This document shows positions 40,817-42,306 of a DNA stretch of 56,880 bases, piece after piece. Numbering within the stretch: the stretch's first letter is position 1; every line of letters starts with the position of its first letter. Source of the stretch: Caldithrix sp. (GTDB taxonomy: Bacteria; Calditrichota; Calditrichia; Calditrichales; Calditrichaceae); contig DYOS01000007.1 in NCBI GenBank assembly GCA_020720405.1, forward strand, positions 1 to 56,880, in the 5' to 3' direction. The notes beneath the pieces were generated by a model. It worked only from the letters and a program-made list of their open reading frames with translations. It ran no database searches and was not told the DNA's origin. The translations under genes and the position numbers were made by a program.

Positions 40817-41167
40817 GGGGACGTTTTTGGATTTGACGGGCATAAGAAGGATGTGAACGGCAACCCGGGATCCCGGTTACCCCGCAATTAACCGGAAGCA
40901 CGATAAGTGCCGACTACGATTACGCACTGGCAGCTTAATTGATTGCCACGTTCACCTGTTCTCCAATCTGCCGGGGATAGATTGAACGCCGCCTGGGCAG
41001 ATTTGAATGGTCATATTTTAAAGGTGGCCATTTAAAACTTACTTTAAATCGTCTGGATGCGGGTTTGTGTTTTGTTCAGCATCAGGATTAAATATCACAA
41101 AGCACTAAGGTTGTAGAAGTTTACGTTGGTCTATGTCCGGACCCGGGTTCGACTCCCGGCGTCTCCA
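40817..41167 (+). ncRNA. ssrA: transfer-messenger RNA (tmRNA, ssrA)
   Basis: tmRNA rescues stalled ribosomes and tags the stalled peptide for degradation. The 5' end GGGGACG (40817-40823) pairs with CGTCTCC (41160-41166) as the tRNA-like acceptor with one G-U. TTTGGATTTGACGGG at the 5' side and GGGTTCGACTCCC (T arm) at the 3' side are typical. The tag frame starts at GCC (40909) after the resume context ATAAGT and encodes ADYDYALAA, then TAA at 40936-40938. The discriminator is A (41167); a full CCA is not encoded. Length is about 351 nt, one-piece form. Confidence 0.95.
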
Positions 41168-41174
41168 CAAATTT

Positions 41175-41315
41175 ATGAATAGTCTGATTATCCTTATCCT
41201 GGGCATTTTATTTTTGGTTCTGCTTTATTCGGCACAGCAAAAAAGCCGCAAAACCCAACAAAAGAGCCGGGCGCTTAAAGAAAAAATTCGAGAAAGATCT
41301 CAAAATTTTGATTGA
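41175..41315 (+). CDS. small single-pass membrane protein (46 residues)
   Basis: The short frame encodes an N-terminal TM helix (NSLIILILGILFLVLLYSAQ) followed by a strongly basic, helical tail with QQKSRKTQQKSRALKEKIRE. The layout recalls the TM plus basic tail of YajC but is too short to assign. There is no ribosome binding site: the ATG lies 8 bases after the tmRNA 3' end. Its stop codon overlaps the -35 box of the tRNA promoter. It may be a real small protein or a chance frame. Confidence 0.35.
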   Translation: MNSLIILILGILFLVLLYSAQQKSRKTQQKSRALKEKIRERSQNFD

Positions 41316-41340
41316 CAGTTTTAGTGCCAAGTAATATATT
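41312..41340 (+). promoter_or_regulatory. sigma-70 promoter of the tRNA-Gly/Cys/Leu operon
   Basis: A perfect TTGACA (41312-41317), a 17-base spacer and TATATT (41335-41340) form a very strong promoter 58 bases before tRNA-Gly. No terminator is seen until 42264, so it should transcribe the tRNAs and both nuclease cassettes. Confidence 0.8.
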
Positions 41341-41398: not shown

Positions 41399-41471
41399 GC
41401 GAGAGTAGCTCAGTTGGTAGAGCACAACCTTGCCAAGGTTGGGGTCGCGGGTTCGAGTCCCGTCTCTCGCT
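41399..41471 (+). tRNA. tRNA-Gly (GCC)
   Basis: A full cloverleaf with acceptor GCGAGAG/CTCTCGC, D arm GCTCAGTTGGTAGAGC, anticodon arm AACCTTGCCAAGGTT (anticodon GCC) and T arm GCGGGTTCGAGTCCCGT. The discriminator is T; CCA is not encoded. It is first in the tRNA operon, 12 bases before tRNA-Cys. Confidence 0.97.
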
Positions 41472-41483
41472 CTTTCTATTTAT

Positions 41484-41558
41484 GGCGACGTACCCAAGTG
41501 GTAAGGGAGAGGTCTGCAAAATCTTTATGCGCCGGTTCGAATCCGGCCGTCGCCTCCA
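41484..41558 (+). tRNA. tRNA-Cys (GCA), CCA end encoded
   Basis: The acceptor GGCGACG pairs with CGTCGCC (41548-41554). The D arm is CCCAAGTGGTAAGGG, the anticodon loop is CTGCAAA (anticodon GCA), and the T arm is GCCGGTTCGAATCCGGC. The discriminator T (41555) is followed by CCA at 41556-41558. The last A is also the first base of the ATG of the nuclease gene. The 3' 19 bases (41538-41556) are repeated twice downstream at 41838 and 42138. Confidence 0.95.
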
Positions 41559-41806
41559 TGGGCAAAGAATACTTTGTTTATATCTTGAGGAGCGAAAGAG
41601 ATGGCCGGCGCTATATAGGTTATACAGCAGACCTTGAACGCAGACTGTCAGAGCATCAATCGGGATTAGTGAAATCCACAAAGTTCCGGCGGCCATTAAA
41701 ATTAGTACATACTGAAAAATATTCAGATAAAAAAGAAGCTGAGAAGCGCGAGATGTTCTTTAAAACCGGACAGGGGCGGCAATATTTGTCAGATCACGGT
41801 CTGTAA
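41558..41806 (+). CDS. GIY-YIG nuclease, cassette copy 1
   Basis: An 82-residue stand-alone GIY-YIG domain: EYFVYILRSERDGRRYIGYT contains the GIY (VYI) and YIG elements, followed by the catalytic-type Arg in LERRLSEHQSG, and KKEAEKREMFFKTGQG with the metal-binding Glu and the family's C-terminal signature. It is the YhbQ/UvrC-N-like single-domain type; such enzymes nick or cut DNA. The ATG begins inside the encoded CCA of tRNA-Cys, and no Shine-Dalgarno precedes it. The open frame runs back through the tRNAs, but the domain begins at this ATG. Expression is probably as part of the tRNA transcript. Confidence 0.85.
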   Translation: MGKEYFVYILRSERDGRRYIGYTADLERRLSEHQSGLVKSTKFRRPLKLVHTEKYSDKKEAEKREMFFKTGQGRQYLSDHGL

Positions 41807-41857
41807 GGCTGAGAGTATGCAACCCGCCTGAGGCGGGCGAATCCGGCCGTCGCCTCC

Positions 41858-42106
41858 ATGGGCAAAGAATACTTTGTTTATATCTTGAGGAGCGAAAGAG
41901 ATGGCCGGCGCTATATAGGTTATACAGCAGACCTTGAACGCAGACTGTCAGAGCATCAATCGGGATTAGTGAAATCCACAAAGTTCCGGCGGCCATTAAA
42001 ATTAGTACATACTGAAAAATATTCAGATAAAAAAGAAGCTGAGAAGCGCGAGATGTTCTTTAAAACCGGACAGGGGCGGCAATATTTGTCAGATCACGGT
42101 CTGTAA
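41858..42106 (+). CDS. GIY-YIG nuclease, cassette copy 2
   Basis: Base-for-base identical to the first copy, hence the same 82-residue GIY-YIG domain protein. It is preceded by an 18-base copy of the tRNA-Cys 3' end plus CCA context, not by a complete tRNA. The exact identity means either a very recent duplication or ongoing homogenisation. A collapse or artefactual expansion in assembly would also give identical copies. Confidence 0.85.
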   Translation: MGKEYFVYILRSERDGRRYIGYTADLERRLSEHQSGLVKSTKFRRPLKLVHTEKYSDKKEAEKREMFFKTGQGRQYLSDHGL

Positions 42107-42168
42107 GGCTGAGAGTATGCAACCCGCCTGAGGCGGGCGAATCCGGCCGTCGCCTCTGTCAAACGGCT

Positions 42169-42254
42169 GCCGGGGTGGTGGAATTGGTAGACACAAGGGA
42201 CTTAAAATCCCTCGGGAGTTAAATCCCGTACCGGTTCAAGTCCGGTCCCCGGTA
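42169..42254 (+). tRNA. tRNA-Leu (TAA)
   Basis: A class II tRNA of 86 nt with a long variable arm (TCGGGAGTTAAATCCCG). The acceptor GCCGGGG pairs with CCCCGGT, with G-U at the first pair. The anticodon arm is GGGACTTAAAATCCC with anticodon TAA. The T arm is ACCGGTTCAAGTCCGGT. The discriminator is A and CCA is not encoded. It is the last tRNA before a terminator. Confidence 0.96.
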
Positions 42255-42263
42255 CTGGGAACA

Positions 42264-42306
42264 AGGGTTTAATTATCAAATTTTACTGATGATTAAACCC
42301 TTTTTT
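42264..42306 (+). terminator. rho-independent terminator of the tRNA operon
   Basis: AGGGTTTAATTATCA (42264-42278) pairs with TGATGATTAAACCCT (42287-42301), 15 bp with one U-G pair, around an 8-base loop, followed by TTTTTTATTT. It is a strong terminator 10 bases after tRNA-Leu. Confidence 0.92.

Follow-up and report, generated by a model that had tools for sequence, protein, structure and literature searches.

In a tRNA operon of Caldithrix sp., an intact tRNA-Cys gene was found to be followed by two identical 300-bp units, each carrying a single gene for an 82-residue GIY-YIG nuclease and a pseudo-tRNA-Cys with a hairpin in its middle. The two nuclease copies, together with lineages of relatives that are each tied to one tRNA, suggest an undescribed family of minimal selfish elements living on tRNA genes. 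The best explanation, which we judge equally apt to be right or wrong, is a minimal selfish cassette made up of one GIY-YIG endonuclease gene and a hairpin-bearing copy of the host tRNA, residing in a tRNA operon, with the lineages of the family each dedicated to one isotype.

Anatomy of the tRNA-Cys locus

The window, i.e., the whole stretch of 56,880 nucleotides that was analysed, corresponds to one whole contig of a genome of 3.33 Mb in 266 contigs. ARAGORN identified the tRNA operon as tRNA-Gly, tRNA-Cys and tRNA-Leu, and a consensus scan placed a single predicted promoter and a single predicted terminator on its two sides (Table 1). Directly upstream of the operon lies a tmRNA gene (tag ADYDYALAA, 40817–41168), the end of which is overlapped by a 60-codon ORF with a hydrophobic stretch (41133–41315).

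Table 1. Features of the tRNA operon and of the two cassette units in the window.
Feature	Position	Strand	Basis
Sigma-70-like promoter TTGACA-17-TATATT, 5' of the tRNA operon (predicted)	41312..41340	+	consensus scan, 11/12 matches
tRNA-Gly(gcc), first tRNA of the operon	41399..41472	+	ARAGORN
tRNA-Cys(gca), intact, cassette host; its apparent encoded CCA and the ATG of nuclease copy 1 overlap	41484..41558	+	ARAGORN, sequence
Cassette unit 1, 300 bp	41538..41837	+	exact direct repeat
GIY-YIG nuclease gene copy 1, 82 aa	41558..41806	+	ORF by sequence, tblastn, Pfam
Decayed 5' piece of pseudo-tRNA-Cys, copy 1, GCTGAGAGTATGCAA	41808..41822	+	alignment with tRNA-Cys and pseudo-tRNAs of relatives
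Hairpin CCCGCC-TGA-GGCGGG, copy 1, in place of anticodon 3' arm to T-arm 5' side	41823..41837	+	pattern search, alignment
tRNA-Cys 3' end, second copy; tail of pseudo-tRNA 1 and start of unit 2	41838..41856	+	direct repeat
Cassette unit 2, 300 bp	41838..42137	+	exact direct repeat
GIY-YIG nuclease gene copy 2, 82 aa	41858..42106	+	ORF, Pfam
Decayed 5' piece of pseudo-tRNA-Cys, copy 2	42108..42122	+	alignment
Hairpin, copy 2	42123..42137	+	pattern search
tRNA-Cys 3' end, third copy, closing the array	42138..42156	+	direct repeat
tRNA-Leu(taa), last tRNA of the operon	42169..42255	+	ARAGORN
Terminator-like hairpin and T-run, 3' of tRNA-Leu (predicted)	42263..42302	+	consensus scan

Between tRNA-Cys and tRNA-Leu, the two 300-nt units are 100% identical and are followed by a final 19-bp tRNA-Cys 3' end, the 19-mer CGAATCCGGCCGTCGCCTC being present three times (41538, 41838 and 42138). 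The tandem arrangement with a third 19-bp copy, the single 82-residue GIY-YIG gene in each unit and the perfect hairpin CCCGCC-TGA-GGCGGG (CCCGCCTGAGGCGGG) in each, all described in the initial annotation, were confirmed. Each nuclease ORF begins at the last bases of a tRNA 3' end; in copy 1, the A of the ATG coincides with the A of the apparent encoded CCA of tRNA-Cys. According to tblastn, these two are the only copies of the nuclease gene in the window's genome. An assembly of 266 contigs may have collapsed or expanded an exact tandem repeat, and the two exact cassette copies are to be read as at least one and probably more, rather than as a measured number. In the same genome (G000), CCCGCCCGGGCGGG repeats are scattered over about 20 contigs, many of them within 300 bases of contig ends, which points to a longer dispersed repeat that probably breaks the assembly.

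Alignment with relatives revealed the end of each unit to be a pseudo-tRNA-Cys, consisting of a decayed 5' piece that ends in TGCAA, the hairpin and the intact 3' end CGAATCCGGCCGTCGCCTC, with the hairpin replacing all that normally separates the anticodon loop from the T-loop. The initial proposal, an insertion of 281 bp that merely duplicated a 19-bp target at the tRNA end, was thus rejected: a 5' remnant and a hairpin precede the 19-mer, which forms the tail of a pseudo-tRNA. The layout is common to at least seven other genomes of the phylum (G005, G006, G009, G012, G017, G020 and G022). One of these, assembled into one contig of 4.98 Mb (G005), contains seven tandem pseudo-tRNA-Cys copies with hairpins at a period of 111 bp and no nuclease at the locus (L114, 744–1423), and in G012 one pseudo-tRNA-Cys lies on either side of tRNA-Cys, again with no nuclease at the locus. 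Adjoining the latter locus, a pseudo-tRNA-Gly with the mid-gene hairpins TCCCGATCCTCGGGA and TCCCAAAGGGA was observed (L113, 1740–1830).

The hairpin CCCGCCTGAGGCGGG lies at 41823 and 42123, compared with 0.06 chance matches expected for a looser pattern. With up to one mismatch allowed, it was absent from the rest of the 3.33-Mb genome and occurred in the two cassettes only; a high-copy REP of its own genome is therefore rejected for this sequence. A function as transcription terminator is unlikely because no T-run follows the hairpin, and the terminator-like site of the operon is found 3' of tRNA-Leu. As a single strand, the pseudo-tRNA of the window folds no better than shuffled sequence (z = −0.7).

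The nuclease and its relatives at other isotypes

The 82-residue protein belongs to the GIY-YIG superfamily (Pfam PF01541, E = 1.4e-16), the domain match covering residues 5–70. Within a tree of 102 small GIY-YIG proteins, two well-supported groups were resolved (100/98): group B, with the tRNA-linked cassette proteins, and its sister clade, group A, a second small GIY-YIG type that these genomes encode and that is not tRNA-linked. Y8, Y19, G21, R29, H33 and E65 are invariant in all 41 of 41 group-B proteins, and the catalytic Tyr, Tyr, Arg, His and Glu are all present. The dN/dS ratio was 0.06–0.31 in ten of the 12 pairs with a measurable ratio and 0.76 and 0.88 in the remaining two, which weigh against the best explanation.

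In size and fold family, the cassette nuclease resembles UPF0213/COG2827 proteins (YazA/YhbQ type); its closest solved structures by sequence are PDB 1ywl and 1zg2, UPF0213 proteins of unknown function, followed, as a weak third-best match, by the structure-specific SLX1. A separate DNA-binding region is absent, hardly any sequence lying outside the GIY-YIG domain. The protein is, thus, essentially a bare catalytic domain, and a sequence-specific cut in tRNA-Cys is something that we infer. This is counted against the best explanation, as a bare domain would leave the recognition of one tRNA gene and the sparing of the adjacent intact tRNA unaccounted for.

Small GIY-YIG genes were found in 35 of the 60 relatives searched, many in tandem pairs and many at contig ends. 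With tRNA linkage defined as a tRNA or tRNA piece within 260 bp of the nuclease locus, 46 of 58 group-B loci were linked, compared with one of 35 in group A (Fisher p = 4e-14). The subclades of group B sort largely by isotype (Cys, Ser, Glu, Val, Asp, Thr and Pro), with the isotype label changing 11 times on the tree (40 loci, nine isotypes) versus 23–30 times in 200 shuffles; the labels, taken from the nearest tRNAs or pieces, were assigned after the tree was known but were read from the DNA independently of it. Loci of Patescibacteria and other phyla that are distant from these (L032, L034, L036, L038 and L039) are also near tRNAs, suggesting that the tRNA-linked habit is wider than the phylum.

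The search suggested by the initial annotation, for small GIY-YIG genes that start a few bases from a tRNA 3' end and are accompanied by the repeat and the hairpin, returned such an arrangement for Cys and Ser, while for Glu, Val, Asp, Thr, Pro, Asn and Leu a looser form was found. Its picture of a tRNA-directed unit that does without an integrase and leaves the tRNA intact agrees with the data, as tRNA-Cys is whole, the nuclease is the only gene of the unit and 46 of the 58 group-B loci are near a tRNA.

A similar anatomy was revealed at the other isotypes. Downstream, and often also upstream, of group-B genes lie pseudo-tRNAs whose 3' part is intact and in which a hairpin has taken the place of the anticodon arm or T-arm. 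For a given isotype, their break points coincide between genera (Cys 38|56, Glu 29|45, Val 28|46), those of Glu delimiting exactly the anticodon arm. For the tRNA-Val pseudo-copy, a cloverleaf fold in which the anticodon arm has been swapped was obtained (z = −7.0). At loci with a terminator of the tRNA's own between tRNA and gene, such as L055 (Glu), the repeated stretch comprises the tRNA 3' half, the terminator and the start of the gene. The two tandem genes at L006 are the same over a stretch of 127 bases that starts at the tRNA 3' end and runs into the gene, beyond which they differ, as is expected if recombination was centred there. A mirror layout of partial tRNA 5' piece, GIY-YIG gene and full tRNA was seen at Gly, Ser, Asp and Ala (L015, L046, L048 and L050). 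At another locus (L070, in G018), a tandem unit contains two complete tRNA-Glu genes, each followed by the start of a nuclease gene, with a short N run between them, which indicates that full tRNA genes can be multiplied too.

Among the tRNAs of the respective isotype, the resident tRNA was the best or an equal match of the downstream tRNA 3' pieces for 17 of 17 nuclease copies scored, and the Ser pieces at L014 and L016 bear differing variable arms, each being that of its own host. This points to local duplication or continual conversion and argues against a foreign tRNA end, the import of which is unsupported.

Proposed mechanism and alternative explanations

The selfish-cassette explanation is supported by the anatomy, the isotype-locked association, the conserved catalytic residues, the selection on the gene, the empty and nuclease-free sites and the agreement of the tRNA pieces. 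According to it, the nuclease would break the DNA at a presumed cut position within its tRNA gene or adjacent to it. The break would then be repaired by homologous recombination, with the tRNA pieces that flank the cassette priming the repair; in this putative copying step, the cassette is copied into an empty site or a tandem copy is added. The tRNA would stay whole, with the cassette carrying or regenerating its 3' part, and the hairpin-substituted pseudo-tRNAs would be left-over copies, presumably resistant in that they are no longer cut. Expression would occur via read-through from the promoter of the tRNA operon, and the cassette would be selfish in nature. The isotype locking may reflect the homology that repair requires rather than recognition.

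The strongest rival is a structure-specific nuclease, of which the hairpins could be the mark. Here, a GIY-YIG enzyme would recognise hairpin or cloverleaf structures formed by DNA extrusion at tRNA genes or pseudo-tRNAs, and it would move or multiply hairpin units in the way RAYT does REPs, with isotype locking resulting from local descent rather than sequence recognition. REPs are short hairpins that occur with and without a linked enzyme gene, the enzyme of the REP/RAYT system being an HUH/Y1 tyrosine transposase. The cassette hairpins likewise occur with and without a linked enzyme gene, as in the nuclease-free arrays; they differ in lying inside tRNA copies and in being accompanied by a GIY-YIG enzyme instead of an HUH/Y1 transposase. 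Hairpins within pseudo-tRNAs of nearly every isotype seen, the cloverleaf fold of the tRNA-Val pseudo-copy, the small size of a nuclease lacking a binding domain and the weak match with SLX1 are all in favour of this reading. So are other GC palindromes dispersed in these genomes, among which TCCCGA..TCGGGA hairpins amount to up to 62 per genome versus 0–3 for a reversed-pattern control, and the position of sister-clade nucleases among REP-like repeats. The hairpin of the window, however, is confined to the two cassettes of its genome and is not dispersed extragenically, the pseudo-tRNA of the window folds no better than shuffled sequence, and neither the ends nor the target duplications that mark hairpin transposition were seen. 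We regard this rival as unlikely.

As to the sister-clade small GIY-YIG genes themselves (L027, L029, L030, L031, L066, L083 and L084), the dispersed palindromic repeats among which they sit include, for instance, CGTTGAGCTTGTCGAAACC and GTCATCCCCGCGCAGGCGGGGAACC near L029–L031. This could be a second nuclease–repeat association.

Alternatively, the nuclease gene might be an old resident that was inherited with the tRNA operon and has a role for the host but no part in its own spread, the arrays having arisen by unequal recombination and the pseudo-tRNAs by decay and the insertion of dispersed palindromes, which these genomes do contain. The Cys nuclease tree agrees with the host families, so that much of the pattern can be explained by inheritance combined with repeated loss; the lineage at tRNA-Cys appears to have been passed on mostly by vertical descent, and the homing postulated in the initial annotation is not supported for it. 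For the Ser copies of the window's family, a tree suggestive of horizontal transfer was obtained, but an AU test did not reject a single clade, i.e., vertical descent (p = 0.23). Plasmids and phages yielded no close copies but only general small GIY-YIG proteins of less than 50% identity, on which grounds carriage by either was dismissed; this, too, weighs against the selfish-cassette explanation.

On the other side, presence of the nuclease is patchy. The tRNA-Cys gene occurs both with and without it among relatives, and empty Cys–Leu intervals were identified in five genomes (G007, G008, G015, G016 and G019), which provides empty sites in relatives, as the initial annotation had called for. 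Two of these (G007 and G008) are of the same family, and G015 shares its genus with the nuclease carriers G017 and G018. In a single genome (G026), the nuclease gene occupies three tRNA-Ser isoacceptors. Independent isotype-locked lineages all lie beside tRNA genes, whereas the sister clade of the same genomes does not, and the break points are consistent between genera. The evidence shows turnover and local multiplication of the cassettes. Taken with these points, a purely resident locus appears improbable, slightly more so than the structure-specific nuclease.

Relation to known systems and significance

Islands and satellites integrated at tRNA genes by tyrosine integrases show the order of intact tRNA, element and tRNA 3' repeat, and they form tandem arrays. 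The cassette shares this anatomy, as it leaves the tRNA intact, ends in a tRNA 3' repeat and is arranged in tandem; it departs from it in having a unit of 300 bp, in which the nuclease is the only gene and no tyrosine or serine integrase is encoded. The resemblance would be accounted for if the units were passive attachment-site cassettes moved in trans by a tyrosine integrase whose gene lies elsewhere; the tRNA 3' end would then act as the attachment core, the hairpin as the other arm and the nuclease as cargo. This is very improbable, however, given that, across many lineages and isotypes, the unit contains no kind of gene other than the same nuclease, that pseudo-tRNAs are copied even with 5' pieces upstream of the tRNA and that the start of the core varies widely between isotypes.

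Least credible of all is an RNA-level pair resembling a type III toxin–antitoxin, in which the tRNA transcript would be the substrate of the nuclease, with the pseudo-tRNA, once transcribed, as decoy or antidote; the location of the cassettes inside the tRNA transcription unit, the cloverleaf that pseudo-tRNA-Val retains without its anticodon arm and the existence of pseudo-tRNA arrays would fit, but many pseudo-tRNAs, including that of the window, are too decayed for a tRNA fold and, to our knowledge, characterised GIY-YIG enzymes act on DNA.

The selfish-cassette explanation has its closest tested counterpart in phage SegB and its closest anatomical counterpart in the fungal mobile ORFs. SegB of phages T4/T6 is a free-standing GIY-YIG homing endonuclease of the tRNA region that cuts tRNA-containing DNA, and experiment has shown tandem amplification of the tRNA-segB unit by homologous recombination through short homology or microhomology, with no isotype preference being found (PMC13096335). 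The cassettes are comparable in that a GIY-YIG nuclease adjoins tRNA genes in tandem units. Unlike SegB, they reside in cellular chromosomes, encode an 82-residue, nearly bare catalytic domain, fall into isotype-locked lineages, have hairpin pseudo-tRNAs and hold only the tRNA 3' part in the unit. Because it lacks a DNA-binding part and is isotype-locked, the cassette nuclease was not filed as a Seg-type homing endonuclease; in fold it is an ordinary GIY-YIG nuclease, which by analogy of action would work like SegB.

In mobile ORFs of fungal mitochondria (Allomyces atp6; Glomus atp6, atp9, cox2 and nad3), as far as described in the passages on them, an endonuclease gene lies near the 3' part of the host gene, that part is duplicated on the far side and the gene remains whole; the targets are protein genes, and the inserted end was read as foreign (PMC3630166). 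By comparison with these passages, the duplication of the host gene's 3' end beyond the nuclease gene is shared (the 19-bp tRNA-Cys end and comparable pieces at other isotypes), whereas the cassettes are directed at a tRNA, carry a duplicated end that agrees with the resident gene (17 of 17 copies scored) and have a hairpin joint, which those passages (PMC3630166) do not describe. The best explanation would thus join, by analogy, the break at a tRNA and tandem amplification of SegB with the preservation of a whole gene seen in the fungal mobile ORFs.

Open-access papers, searched in full text, yielded no description of chromosomal tRNA-linked GIY-YIG cassettes, and the section on repeats of the Caldithrix abyssi genome paper does not mention them. 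We tentatively propose, with slightly less than even confidence, that bacteria harbour an undescribed and widespread class of minimal mobile elements, composed of a bare GIY-YIG domain and a hairpin-substituted pseudo-tRNA, which would copy themselves into tRNA genes in isotype-dedicated lineages without an integrase or transposase and leave hairpin pseudo-tRNA arrays as their footprint.

If this is true, the cassette would be near the smallest possible selfish DNA, with about 280 bp and one 82-residue enzyme, and without integrase, transposase or intron. It would show a nuclease parasitising essential tRNA genes without breaking them, with target specificity held by a bare catalytic domain, and would account for the many tRNA-adjacent small GIY-YIG genes of the phylum as well as for the puzzling pseudo-tRNA arrays. 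It would also bear on changes in tRNA dosage such as those made by SegB in phages and, tRNA genes being universal landing sites, the mechanism would bear on how integrase-based islands came to tRNA 3' ends.
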